From: a virus
IMG/VR virus record: IMGVR_UViG_3300018059_000011
Location: 1 to 64,000 of that record
Length of the DNA: 64,000 nucleotides
Strand: one strand, 5' to 3'
Part shown: piece after piece, positions 3,294 through 21,083 of the stretch
How the letters are laid out: each line of letters opens with the position of its first letter
Position numbering within the stretch: the stretch's first letter is position 1
The notes under the pieces: model-generated
The model's input: only the letters and a program-made list of their open reading frames with translations
Database searches by the model: none
What the model was told of the DNA's origin: nothing
Made by a program: the position numbers and the translations under genes

Positions 3294-3755
3294 ATGCGTA
3301 AACTCATGGGACTGATTTTCACGGCGCTGATGCTGACGACGGCAACATCTGCATTCTCGCGCGACGGCTACGAGGGGCGGCCTTCGGTCTGCGCCCAGTC
3401 ATCCCCCGCGAGTGTCGAGCGCTGCCAACAGTGGATCAGCACGGTGCTGCGCCCCGACACGCGGACCTCATGCTGCGGTGACGGCGACTCTTTCATCGCC
3501 GATGACTTTGAACTCGGCCCGCATGGCGAACTCTATGCGATCATCAGCGTCGATTACCCGGACGTGACCGCGCCCGAGTCGGATGATGGGACTCCGAGCG
3601 TCACGGTCAGGATCACTCGGGGCACAAAGATTCTGGTGCCCGCCGACAAGCAGAATCACGCCCCGGAAGATGCCAACAGGTCCGGCCACGGCGTCATCTT
3701 CCTGCTGCCTGGGACCAAATCGGTGCTGTGCTACTTCGCGCCGCCGCTGATTTGA
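3294..3755 (+). CDS. Exported protein with Cys-rich core (153 aa)
   Basis: The start at 3294 follows GGAGGAG. The first about 22 residues (KLMGLIFTALMLTTATSAFS) are a classical signal peptide with a likely cleavage at AFS. The mature part has CAQSS, ERCQQW, then TSCCGDGDSFIADDFE and a C-terminal LCYF. The WxxxxxRPDxxTSCC pattern resembles small exported proteins of Rhizobiales. It would act in the periplasm. The function is unknown; exclusion or envelope modification are only guesses. Confidence 0.6.
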   Translation: MRKLMGLIFTALMLTTATSAFSRDGYEGRPSVCAQSSPASVERCQQWISTVLRPDTRTSCCGDGDSFIADDFELGPHGELYAIISVDYPDVTAPESDDGTPSVTVRITRGTKILVPADKQNHAPEDANRSGHGVIFLLPGTKSVLCYFAPPLI

Positions 3756-3765
3756 TGGAGGCTCC

Positions 3766-3795
3766 ATGAGCGGTCGTATCTGGGTTTTGTCGTGA
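3766..3795 (+). pseudogene. Nine-codon remnant copy of the phosphoesterase start
   Basis: ATG at 3766 after GATGGAGGCTCC encodes MSGRIWVLS then TGA. The first codons mirror the start of the metallophosphoesterase at 4259 (MSRIWVNAD). The endonuclease gene at 3792 starts inside the TGA (GTGA). The simplest reading is that the original start region was separated from its gene by the endonuclease cassette and that the gene was given a new start copy at 4259. Confidence 0.6.
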
Positions 3796-4262
3796 GAAAG
3801 AACGCCTCGAAATTCAGAGTGATGAGTAGGTCGGGAAAAATCTACTACGATTATGATCGTGAGACCCGCAAGCGCTGCAAATTTGTGATGCTGAAGAAAA
3901 CAAGTGCCTCGGGTAAAGTCTACTACACGTATCCTAGGACTAAGAAATTTCGGAAACAGGTACTGGCCCGTTCAAAACGCTGGAAAGAAAGAAATGCAGA
4001 GCACGTAAAGACCGTGAATCGAGAGCGACATTTGACGAGGCTCGAAAAATTGGCTGGTAGGCCCCGACCAGCCGCGTGTGAATGCTGCGGCGGTCCCCCA
4101 AACAGTAAGAGGTCAAAAAGATTGGAATACGACCACGATCATGTAACGGGCAAATTTCGTGGATGGCTGTGCGGTAACTGCAATAGAGCTTTGGGCCAAG
4201 CAAAAGAAAGTATCAGTCATCTGGAAAAGCTCATTGTGTATTTGAGGAGACATCAGTCATGA
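3792..4262 (+). CDS. Endonuclease VII-like HNH nuclease, freestanding
   Basis: 156 residues. The N-terminal about 90 residues are basic, with two similar segments (KIYYDYDRETRKR and KVYYTYPRTKKFRK). The C-terminal third is the recombination endonuclease VII fold: CECCGG, EYDHDHVTGKFRGWLCGNCN, ALG. The GTG start overlaps the stop of the nine-codon remnant, and its own stop overlaps the ATG of the phosphoesterase (ATGA at 4259-4262), so it is exactly sandwiched. Two relatives occur at 10650 and 20757. In T4 this fold resolves branched DNA; the isolated genes here look more like homing elements. Confidence 0.8.
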   Translation: MRKNASKFRVMSRSGKIYYDYDRETRKRCKFVMLKKTSASGKVYYTYPRTKKFRKQVLARSKRWKERNAEHVKTVNRERHLTRLEKLAGRPRPAACECCGGPPNSKRSKRLEYDHDHVTGKFRGWLCGNCNRALGQAKESISHLEKLIVYLRRHQS

Positions 4263-4753
4263 GTCGTATATGGGTAAATGCGGATTGCCACTTCGGGCAC
4301 CCGAACATTCTCAACTTCAAGCGAGATGACGGTAGCCTCATTCGTGGCGCTGTCTTCCAGAACTCGCACGAGCACAACGCTGTGGTCCGCCCCGAGGATC
4401 ATGTCTACTTCCTTGGCGATGTCGCCATCAACCGCCGGTTCCTGCCTCTCGTCACTCGGATGATGGGACACAAGCGGCTGGTGCGCGGCAACCACGACAT
4501 CGCCAAGACCAAAGAGTATCTCGACAACGGCTTCGACGAAATCTATGGCGTCCGCGTGTTTCGGGCGCAGGACCAACAGGGCAAGACCGGGTTCTTCCTC
4601 ACTCACATTCCGATTCACCCTCGGAGCCTGCCCGCGTGGGCGCGAAATGTCCACGGCCATCTGCACGCGAACATCGTCAAAGCCGGGCGCCGAGCCCGCT
4701 ATGGCCGAGGGGCCGCAGTCAAGATCGCAATCTCGTTGCCGGAGGATGTGTGA
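4259..4753 (+). CDS. Calcineurin-like metallophosphoesterase
   Basis: 164 residues with the full metal-binding set: D9-x-H11 in NADCHFGH, GDV at 53-55, GNHD at 77-80, THIPIH at 115-120 and GHLH at 133-136. It belongs to the short single-domain phosphoesterases common in phages; the substrate (nucleotide, RNA end or other phosphoester) cannot be read from the sequence. The start lies in the stop of the inserted endonuclease gene, with GAGGAG from that gene's 3' end as its ribosome binding site. The usual C-terminal end looks reworked into a basic RRARYGRGAA tail. Confidence 0.85.
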   Translation: MSRIWVNADCHFGHPNILNFKRDDGSLIRGAVFQNSHEHNAVVRPEDHVYFLGDVAINRRFLPLVTRMMGHKRLVRGNHDIAKTKEYLDNGFDEIYGVRVFRAQDQQGKTGFFLTHIPIHPRSLPAWARNVHGHLHANIVKAGRRARYGRGAAVKIAISLPEDV

Positions 4754-6491: not shown

Positions 6492-7121
6492 ATGAATACT
6501 GTCAGTACACGGATGGAGAATGCGGCGGGGGCGCCTTCAGTGCTGCTCGATGCGCTCATTAGGGCTGCTTTGATCCCGAGGCTCCGGGCCAAATACCAGA
6601 GTGAGAATCCTCGCATCGTCGATGAGATGGTTGTCTGGGGAGGAACCGTTAGAGTGGACGTGGCCGTAGTCGGTGACCAACTGCGCGGGTACGAGATCAA
6701 GAGCGACGCTGACACCGTGAGGCGGCTCCCTAACCAAGTGAAATACTACAGCGAAGCTTTTGACGAGATGACGCTGGTCGTCGGCGAGAAGCTTCAGCAC
6801 AAGGCTGTGGCCCTGATTCCTGAATGGTGGGCCGTCACCGTGGTCAGCTACGATGCCGGTGCTGCGAGCTTTCACGATCTGAGGCCGGGCGCCGCCAATC
6901 CCGTGTTGAAGCCGTTGATGCTCGCCCGATACCTCTGGAAAGCCGAGTCCCTTTCGATCCTCGAAAAGCACGGGCTCGCAAAAGGCTTTAGATCGGCGAG
7001 ATCGTATCTCCTCCAAAAGCGGGTGGCTTCGGAGTTGCCGGTCGATCTCCTGCGACAAGAGCTTTTGATCTGCCTGAAGGCTCGCGACCCGGACTGGCAT
7101 CGGGCCAAACATTCCGCTTGA
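6492..7121 (+). CDS. sce7726-family protein (restriction-endonuclease-like)
   Basis: 209 residues. It matches the sce7726 family by RVDVAVVGDQLRGYEIKSDAD followed by LPNQVKYYSEAFDEMTLVVGE and IPEWWAV. The D and E-x-K of VDVAVV...YEIKSD are the expected PD-(D/E)XK catalytic layout, so a nuclease role is likely; these proteins occur in mobile elements and phages, but their targets are not established. The stop at 7119-7121 overlaps the -35 element of the next promoter. A second ATG at 6513 is a possible alternative start. Confidence 0.7.
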   Translation: MNTVSTRMENAAGAPSVLLDALIRAALIPRLRAKYQSENPRIVDEMVVWGGTVRVDVAVVGDQLRGYEIKSDADTVRRLPNQVKYYSEAFDEMTLVVGEKLQHKAVALIPEWWAVTVVSYDAGAASFHDLRPGAANPVLKPLMLARYLWKAESLSILEKHGLAKGFRSARSYLLQKRVASELPVDLLRQELLICLKARDPDWHRAKHSA

Positions 7122-7147
7122 CAATTACGGCGACATTGTGCTAGGGT
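7118..7147 (+). promoter_or_regulatory. Promoter of the HNH gene at 7156
   Basis: TTGACA at 7118-7123, 18-base spacer, TAGGGT at 7142-7147; the ATG is at 7156, eight bases on, so the mRNA would be leaderless. Bases 7118-7143 match 7568-7593 at 23 of 26 positions, so the same promoter is present on both sides of the HNH gene. Confidence 0.7.
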
Positions 7148-7155
7148 CCGCGATC

Positions 7156-7566
7156 ATGCCCAAGTCGGATTTGTCGGTCGAAGAAAAACGTGAGCGCAAT
7201 ATCGCCAAGTGTTCTCGCTGGCGCAAGAGCAATCCAGAAAAACAACGTGGGTATGAAGCTACTTGGAATAAGGCTAACCCTGAACGACGCAGAGCCATAG
7301 CGGCCCGTGCTGGCAGAAAAGTTCGTCAACACAACTACGATTTTGTTTGGGAGTGGAAGAGTACCCATCCCTGTGTTGACTGCGGAGAGCCCGACCCAGT
7401 TGTTTTGGACTTCGCCCATCGAGATCGGAAGACCAAGATCGACAACATCAGCGACATGGTACGCAAAGGCGTGTCTTTGGCTAAGATAAAAGACGAAATT
7501 TCAAAATGCGATTGTCGTTGTGCTAATTGCCACCGTCGAAGGACATTTGTTGAGCGGATGTTTTAG
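7156..7566 (+). CDS. Freestanding HNH homing-type endonuclease
   Basis: 136 residues from ATG 7156 (an upstream in-frame GTG at 7138 lies inside the promoter). Basic N-terminus with RWRKSNPEKQRGY, then HPCVDCGEPDP, LDFAHRDRKTK and CRCANCHRRR. The usual D of the DH pair is replaced by A (FAHRD), which may weaken activity. It is a paralogue of the proteins at 1690 and 9288, interrupts the region just upstream of the gene at 7605/7646, and is flanked by promoter copies. Confidence 0.8.
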   Translation: MPKSDLSVEEKRERNIAKCSRWRKSNPEKQRGYEATWNKANPERRRAIAARAGRKVRQHNYDFVWEWKSTHPCVDCGEPDPVVLDFAHRDRKTKIDNISDMVRKGVSLAKIKDEISKCDCRCANCHRRRTFVERMF

Positions 7567-7567
7567 T

Positions 7568-7597
7568 TTGACAATTGAGGCGTCATTGTGCTATGTT
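7568..7597 (+). promoter_or_regulatory. Promoter for the 7605/7646 genes
   Basis: TTGACA at 7568-7573, 18-base spacer ending in GTGC, TATGTT at 7592-7597. The first ATG (7605) is seven bases downstream, so the predicted transcript starts at that ATG. It is a near-duplicate of the promoter at 7118. Confidence 0.7.
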
Positions 7598-8857: not shown

Positions 8858-8932
8858 GACGATATGGCGGAAGGGTTTACGCGGGGAACTGCAAATTCTC
8901 TTATCCGGGTTCGAGTCCCGGTATCGTCTCCA
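8858..8932 (+). tRNA. tRNA-Cys(GCA)
   Basis: The acceptor stem GACGATA pairs perfectly with TATCGTC (8922-8928); discriminator T at 8929, as expected for tRNA-Cys, and CCA encoded at 8930-8932. Anticodon stem GGGAA/TTCTC, loop CTGCAAA with anticodon GCA at 8891-8893. The T arm CCGGG-TTCGAGT-CCCGG is canonical. The D arm has a three-pair stem with GGG in its loop. Confidence 0.9.
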
Positions 8933-8977: not shown

Positions 8978-9052
8978 CTAGTGATAGCTCAGCAGTAGAG
9001 TATCGGTTTTGGAAACCGAGGGCCGGGAGGGCAGCACTCCCTCACTAGACCA
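8978..9052 (+). tRNA. tRNA-Pro(TGG) with non-canonical D and T loops
   Basis: The acceptor stem CTAGTGA (8978-8984) pairs fully with TCACTAG (9042-9048); discriminator A, CCA encoded at 9050-9052. Anticodon stem TCGGT/ACCGA, loop TTTGGAA, anticodon TGG at 9010-9012. D stem GCTC/GAGT. The T stem GGGAG/CTCCC is sound, but its loop is GGCAGCA rather than TTCRANY, and the D loop AGCAGTA lacks the GG pair. All stems pair, so it is not simply decayed. Confidence 0.75.
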
Positions 9053-9287: not shown

Positions 9288-9737
9288 ATGTTTGATAAGG
9301 AGAAGTACGACCGAAACCGGGATAAAGCAAAACGTCGTGCCCAAAATAAAGTCTATTGGGATCGGCACGGTGAAGTTGCGAAACATAAAAATAGAAATGC
9401 GACAAAATTACGCCAAGAGACTTTGGGTTTTGTGTATACTGGTAGACCTGGAAGGCCATCTAAGTTCAAAGATGGCAAGACTACATTAGAGCGGCGTAAA
9501 GAGATTCGGGACTACGCATGGAGGTATAAAGAAAGCCATCCGTGCGTAGATTGCGGCGAGAAGAATCCGATAGTTTTGGAGTTCGATCACAGGGACAGGA
9601 AAACAAAACTTTTTCATATAGGGGCCGGAAATACTAAGAATCGCGCCATTGAAGAAGTGAAGGATGAAATTGAAAAATGCGATGTACGTTGCGCTAATTG
9701 CCATCGCATCAAGACGTGGATTGAGAATTTACTCTGA
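9288..9737 (+). CDS. Freestanding HNH homing-type endonuclease
   Basis: 149 residues. Basic N-terminal half (KEKYDRNRDKAKRRAQNK), then HPCVDCGEKNP, LEFDHRDRKTK and VRCANCHRIK: intact HNH core with both CxxC pairs. It is clearly more AT-rich than its surroundings, as expected for a recent arrival. There is no ribosome binding site; a weak -10 (GATATT, 9277-9282) precedes the ATG by only five bases. Closest relatives in the window are at 1690 and 7156. Confidence 0.8.
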   Translation: MFDKEKYDRNRDKAKRRAQNKVYWDRHGEVAKHKNRNATKLRQETLGFVYTGRPGRPSKFKDGKTTLERRKEIRDYAWRYKESHPCVDCGEKNPIVLEFDHRDRKTKLFHIGAGNTKNRAIEEVKDEIEKCDVRCANCHRIKTWIENLL

Positions 9738-10174: not shown

Positions 10175-10264
10175 AGAGGGCGGCGCAGCGTTTGGGTCAA
10201 CATAGCCTTAAGACCGCAAAGCGCCTATCAATGGTCGGGTTCGCGCCGACCGCTCTCGCCGAGT

Positions 10265-10342
10265 CTGGTCGTAGCTCAGTCTGGTTAGAGCGTCGGATTG
10301 TGAATCCGAAGGGCGTTGGTTCAAATCCAACCGCCAGGACCA
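10265..10342 (+). tRNA. tRNA-His(GTG), A73 and no G-1
   Basis: The anticodon arm TCGGA-TTGTGAA-TCCGA gives GTG at 10300-10302. D stem GCTC/GAGC with GG in the loop; T arm GTTGG-TTCAAAT-CCAAC; CCA at 10340-10342. The acceptor stem pairs CTGG/CCAG and CG/CG but needs a bulged T at 10269. Discriminator A at 10339 with no G at position -1 matches the unusual tRNA-His of many alphaproteobacteria rather than the usual G-1:C73. Confidence 0.85.
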
Positions 10343-20756: not shown

Positions 20757-21083
20757 ATGGCCGACAGGAATAAAGCAGAGCGCGAGAAGCGCTATCGCAA
20801 GGAACTTCTTGCTAAAGACCCCGATGCTCTGAATCGTCTTAATCGAGCATCATTCAAGCGCCGACTCGAACAACAGGCTGGCCGTCCGCGTCCAGATGTG
20901 TGTGATATTTGTTCTAATTCCAATGACGACGACGCTCCTATGGTGTTTGACCACGATCATGAAACTGGAAAATTTCGAGGGTGGGTTTGCAGCAAATGTA
21001 ATTGGGCTTTGGGCCTTCTCAGGGACAACATCGAGATTGCATTGAACATCGCGTTGTATCTTGAGCGAAGTCGCAGGGGTTGA
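20757..21083 (+). CDS. Endonuclease VII-like HNH nuclease, freestanding
   Basis: 108 residues from ATG 20757. Short basic N-terminus (RNKAEREKRYRKELL), QAGRPRPDVCDICSN, then MVFDHDHETGKFRGWVCSKCNWALG: intact endonuclease VII-type core. Closest to the C-terminal part of the protein at 3792 (both have AGRPRP before the first Cys pair). It sits exactly between the scaffold terminator and the capsid promoter, and its end carries the capsid promoter -35. Confidence 0.8.
   Translation: MADRNKAEREKRYRKELLAKDPDALNRLNRASFKRRLEQQAGRPRPDVCDICSNSNDDDAPMVFDHDHETGKFRGWVCSKCNWALGLLRDNIEIALNIALYLERSRRG

Follow-up and report, generated by a model that had tools for sequence, protein, structure and literature searches.

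A free-standing nuclease gene that enters a useful gene must not ruin it, and must also spare the genome in which it resides; for introns and inteins the answer to this entry problem is splicing, and for the mob and seg genes of T4 it is their placement between genes. In an uncultivated tailed phage, an endonuclease gene overlaps a very short reading frame at its start and a phosphoesterase gene at its end, which raises the question of how it entered this site and what became of the gene that it entered. The window analysed here is the first 64 kb (64,000 nucleotides) of the 84,543-bp IMG/VR virus record IMGVR_UViG_3300018059_000011, a tailed-phage record with terminase, portal, capsid and tape-measure genes.

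All features of the locus lie on the + strand. An ATG at 3766 opens a frame of nine codons, MSGRIWVLS, closed by the TGA at 3793–3795 (3766–3795, the left copy), and is preceded by GGAGG at 3757–3761, which would be the Shine-Dalgarno sequence of the original phosphoesterase start, now serving this leader. The endonuclease gene (3792–4262; 156 aa, GC 47%) is read from GTG 3792–3794, which shares two bases with the leader stop, and an alternative start is present at ATG 3822. Its TGA at 4260–4262 overlaps the ATG at 4259–4261 of a calcineurin-like phosphoesterase of the phrog_547 type (4259–4753, 164 aa), which opens M S R I W V N A D C H F G H. The first nine codons of this gene, MSRIWVNAD (4259–4285, the right copy), are AT-rich and include the rare codons ATA and GTA, and GAGGAG at 4244–4249, within the 3' end of the endonuclease gene, would be a ribosome-binding site that the cassette provides for the phosphoesterase. 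An earlier note on this DNA had read both short starts, the continuation of the second into a phosphoesterase, and the endonuclease start and stop inside its neighbours' stop and start; the coordinates of all three were confirmed.

The nuclease itself is ordinary and it is the junctions that are unusual. The protein matches Pfam PF02945 and phrog_2633 (both E=1.5e-17), its profile matches the Hpy99I and T4 endo VII structures, and D114, H115, H117, R123 and N131 are conserved, the D-H-H-R-N set by which the F-CphI homing family is defined (PMC6083498). Its N-terminus (window 3831–3926) holds two repeats of the form SGK[IV]YY.Y.R.T..., possibly a DNA-binding part. The relatives of the nuclease in T7-like phages and Felixounavirus showed no gene-start copies, their genes being intergenic or intron-borne. 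As the closest characterised relatives, those of Felixounavirus, are intron-encoded and divide a DNA polymerase gene into two parts (PMC6083498), a self-splicing intron or intein carrying the endonuclease had to be weighed here as well. Against it, the region gave no Rfam match and folds no better than shuffled sequences (z +1.7), almost no DNA other than the nuclease gene is present in the insert, and the exons would be duplicated rather than contiguous. Both a group I intron and an intein were rejected, with no ribozyme core or splicing domain found and stop codons at both junctions, and this origin is scarcely credible.

The two copies were compared codon by codon, skipping the GGT of the left copy. 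M, R and W are encoded identically, S (AGC/AGT), I (ATC/ATA) and V (GTT/GTA) by synonymous codons, and the last two positions differ as L/N and S/A. Of 24 nucleotides, 17 are identical and 7 differ, in addition to the codon indel. The nine-codon match proposed in the earlier note therefore shrinks to six matching codons with one extra codon and two mismatches. Within MSRIWV, the six codons that they have in common, the copies diverge only at three third positions; differences confined to silent sites are what selection at the protein level would leave between two coding sequences. The similarity may reach into the ribosome-binding region (ATTTGATGGAGGC... on the left and ATTTGAGGAGAC... on the right), and the repeat is short, 24–36 bp.

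The 3766 mini-ORF could be an unrelated leader that resembles a phosphoesterase start by chance, given that the N-terminal strand follows a common hydrophobic pattern and that generic flank-versus-flank scans around the endonuclease gave p about 0.12 and z = 3.1. The six-residue family profile alone proved too weak as a chance test, with 6 of 5,970 starts scoring at least as well as 3766, and was dropped. The specific match, however, is rare: of the 5,970 start codons of the window, none but 3766 and 4259 has at least five matches to MSRIWVNAD, and the core CGTATMTGGGT occurs only at the left and right copies, with 0.06 expected. In a DNA comparison that included the ribosome-binding region, 3766 ranked first among the window's 1046 ATGs on the + strand as a match to the region around the phosphoesterase start, and a score as high was reached by 6 of 64,740 ATG segments in other loci. 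Since the generic scans and the family profile are weak, the case rests on the specific match, its position at the junction and the synonymous pattern; together with the exact placement at the junction behind a good Shine-Dalgarno sequence, these make a chance resemblance very unlikely.

Phage and IMG/VR relatives of the phosphoesterase share the N-terminus M-x-x-[IV]-[FW]-[LVF]-x-S-D-x-H-F-G-H, in which residue 8 is S in 43 of 45 aligned relatives and G in the other 2; the CcrColossus protein reads IWFLSD at the matching segment. The left copy breaks off exactly at this near-invariant S, just before the catalytic, metal-binding D-x-H motif, and its last residue, S, agrees with the family and not with the right copy. 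Because it fits the family consensus and differs from the right copy only synonymously in the shared codons, the left copy is very probably the 5' end that the phosphoesterase gene had originally, now displaced.

The right copy has the opposite character. Its N7 and A8 each occur in none of the 45 aligned relatives, an A before the D being present in some more distant ones, and its ATA and GTA codons account for 2% and 6% of the codons for their amino acids in core genes. GC3 is 0.33 in the first nine phosphoesterase codons and 0.77 in the body. The codon log-likelihood is host-like for the phosphoesterase body (+44 bits) and not for the nuclease (-44), and the cumulative codon score switches from nuclease-like to host-like at about phosphoesterase codon 9, the same position in the gene at which the left copy breaks off. 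This coincidence is predicted if an insertion brought its own substitute for the piece that it cut off. Over so short a stretch the composition supports rather than proves that the right copy is a foreign replacement 5' end, with the cassette DNA probably ending near 4282–4285. The earlier suggestion of an insertion carrying a replacement 5' end gains from both sides, from the family fit and silent differences of the displaced left start and from the codons and GC of the right copy.

These observations also bear on two other histories. A staggered break may have doubled about 27–37 bp of the native start, with the copies drifting afterwards; the direct-repeat layout suits such a target-site duplication, as does a similarity that possibly includes the ribosome-binding region. 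Drift under selection, however, predicts that the free left copy departs from the family, whereas it is the functional right copy that carries N7, A8 and the two rare codons, which makes this origin unlikely. Alternatively, a whole nuclease-phosphoesterase block may have been imported, leaving the resident phosphoesterase as nine codons and the present one entirely the donor's. The same left remnant would be expected, and the two genes are neighbours elsewhere: in Synechococcus phage S-CBS4 (L011, 2507–3522) an Endo VII gene lies 57 bp upstream of a phosphoesterase. The host-like body, in which only the first 8–9 codons look foreign, argues against such an import; a donor of similar composition would produce the same body, and we consider this history rather improbable. 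Neither the S-CBS4 locus nor that of L286 (942–1500), where the distance is 92 bp, has a copy of the phosphoesterase start.

The earlier note had also held that the host gene survives, and this is true of the frame and the active site rather than of the whole protein. The phosphoesterase matches phrog_547 (E=3.8e-29) and its fold resembles Aquifex AQ665, 1xm7 (Foldseek E=1e-7). The frame is open and all metal-binding motifs are present (D9, H11, D54, N78, H79, H116, H134, H136), and in the AlphaFold2 model (pLDDT 76) the replacement segment forms the first strand, residues 4–8, with good confidence. About 8 residues of a helix are missing and the C-terminus is divergent and poorly modelled; because of these two features activity is not assured, and the phosphoesterase may be decaying.

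We favour, at a probability of roughly 0.7, a free-standing homing-type cassette made up of the DHHRN nuclease gene, its own ribosome-binding site and codons 1 to 8–9 of a foreign phosphoesterase. The nuclease, or its ancestor, would have cleaved a phosphoesterase gene that lacked the cassette, close to codon 9 and just before the conserved D-x-H motif, and repair would have copied in the nuclease gene together with the donor's phosphoesterase start. At the right junction the recipient gene would have been rejoined in or just before conserved motif I, and the recipient's own start would have been stranded on the left, cut off by the stop that now overlaps the nuclease start. The phosphoesterase would then be translated from the cassette-borne start and the nuclease probably by reinitiation after the nine-codon leader. 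With its original recognition sequence interrupted at the left junction and changed at the right one, the carrier would be protected. Cleavage, the target position, resistance and the direction of events are what we infer, and the altered cut site of the earlier note is likewise a reading of the sequence.

A search for relatives with the same neighbourhood and no cassette found none through the phosphoesterase protein or the upstream gene (3294–3755), and the 350-aa downstream gene as query retrieved only a shared domain in unrelated contigs. No phosphoesterase was found, at the sensitivity of the search, in relatives identified through capsid and terminase, many of which are fragments, and no near DNA relative of the record was found among phage records.

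Several known systems work in a similar manner. The WHO elements of Torulaspora and Lachancea yeasts join a nuclease gene to a replacement host-gene end and push the old end aside as a fragment; they replace the 3' end of FBA1, and the allele beside the nuclease gene was resistant by experiment (PMC7282813). By the comparison of the two copies and the codon and family analyses, the phage locus likewise links a nuclease gene to a replacement host-gene end with the old end retained. WHO elements reside in a nuclear genome, encode an intein-related zinc-finger LAGLIDADG protein and act at the 3' end, whereas here an Endo VII-type nuclease of a phage is found at a 5' end, and the nuclease resistance that the new end confers in yeast (PMC7282813) is here a prediction from the sequence differences. 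The phage cassette works alike and is not a WHO member, given its Endo VII family nuclease and the replaced 5' end. Fungal mitochondrial mORFs (for example Allomyces atp6; Glomus atp6, atp9, cox2 and nad3) also combine an endonuclease ORF with a foreign terminus and leave the native terminus behind, but they concern C-terminal ends and LAGLIDADG or GIY-YIG nucleases in mitochondria (PMC3630166); again the phage cassette works like them and is not one of them.

Among phage nucleases, F-CphI and other DHHRN homing endonucleases have the same catalytic residues and, like the present gene, are free-standing beside a conserved phage gene; F-CphI spares its own genome through an intron in psbA (PMC6083498), a role apparently taken here by the replaced gene start. 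In free-standing phage homing, a cassette-free genome is cleaved, resected and repaired from the carrier with co-conversion of the flanks (PMC2988022). T4 mobE, mobA and segF are likewise free-standing phage nuclease genes and share with this locus start-stop overlaps suggesting translational coupling and the co-conversion of flanks that is proposed here, but they lie between genes or split a host gene, and none is described in the passages considered as supplying a replacement start (PMC2988022). A non-exhaustive literature search found no earlier phage example of a gene start replaced by one carried on a cassette.

The record carries four Endo VII genes and three further HNH-like genes. A second Endo VII cassette (20757–21083), between the scaffold and capsid genes, is absent from the 99.7% identical relative L029 (2290–2360). 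The flanks are near-identical up to a terminator and from the capsid leader on, while the two genomes differ in the terminator loop and in the capsid-gene promoter. The other capsid loci that were scanned had no HNH motif immediately ahead of the capsid gene, so the version in the window is probably a gain. Because such a close relative lacks this cassette, sequence comparison supports cassette mobility in this phage lineage. An HNH-like gene at 7156–7566 is flanked by two copies of the promoter-like TTGACAATTNNGGCGNCATTGTGCTA (7118–7143 and 7568–7593), found nowhere else in the window, and the similarity of its flanks extends as far as an ATG on either side; the nuclease at 3792 is thus not the only one in this phage with a copied edge, regulatory or coding. 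The nuclease genes at 1690, 9288, 10650 and 81281 of the record have no clear flank copy. The HNH-like genes 1690–2067, 7156–7566 and 9288–9737 encode related proteins of the CVDCGE..PxVLxF[DA]HRDRKTK...CANCHRR type, without a Pfam match above threshold, and each lies in a short intergenic stretch. A tRNA-Cys, a tRNA recognised by Rfam only and a tRNA-His (8858–8932, 8978–9049 and 10264–10342) cluster beside the HNH-like genes 9288 and 10650.

From IMG/VR, about 80 loci with related nucleases were surveyed. The nuclease start overlaps the preceding gene in 35 of 80 and the nuclease end the next gene in 31 of 80, with both overlaps in 16. End duplications with z>=3 were modestly commoner around Endo VII cassettes (8/82) than around control ORFs (17/352), a comparison confounded by repeats in tail genes and psbA loci and by the 7156 nuclease, which fell into the control set. 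Most surveyed Endo VII loci showed no end duplication, so that replacement of gene ends can account for a minority of them at most. In an unrelated phage (L290, IMGVR_UViG_3300027573_000023, 2100–2700), the upstream gene ends in LTFKKIARKRKKK and a stop that overlap the Endo VII start, and the stop codon of the nuclease falls within a second copy, TFKKIAKKRKGK with its stop, which overlaps the next gene; the copied end follows the pattern TFKKIA[R/K]KRK[K/G]K before the stop. Judged by this arrangement, L290 is an independent, mirror-image case, a putative 3'-end replacement. In L282 (IMGVR_UViG_3300034169_000010, 2110–2820), a 22-bp repeat with 20 identical positions encodes LENNPVK both in the gene upstream and at the C-terminal end of the Endo VII protein. 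No cassette-free relatives of L290 or L282 were found among phage records.

Taken together, these loci may belong to an overlooked class of phage elements, a proposal to which we give slightly less than an even chance: nuclease cassettes would swap gene ends (5' here, 3' in L290 and possibly L282) or promoters (7156–7566 and 20757–21083), the swapped end making the carrier immune without an intron or intein. Selfish nuclease elements of yeast nuclei and of fungal mitochondria are known for this trick, which here would act at the front end of a gene and in a phage. Replacement of the target gene's end is a third solution to the entry problem, already known from those yeast and mitochondrial systems. 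If phage Endo VII-type nucleases share it, this would explain how such cassettes enter coding DNA, and it may explain why many of them end overlapping the start of the next gene (31 of the 80 surveyed). It would also offer a small system with a clear prediction of cleavage and protection, and for annotation it would mean that the ancestral start of a gene may sit upstream of an inserted nuclease gene.
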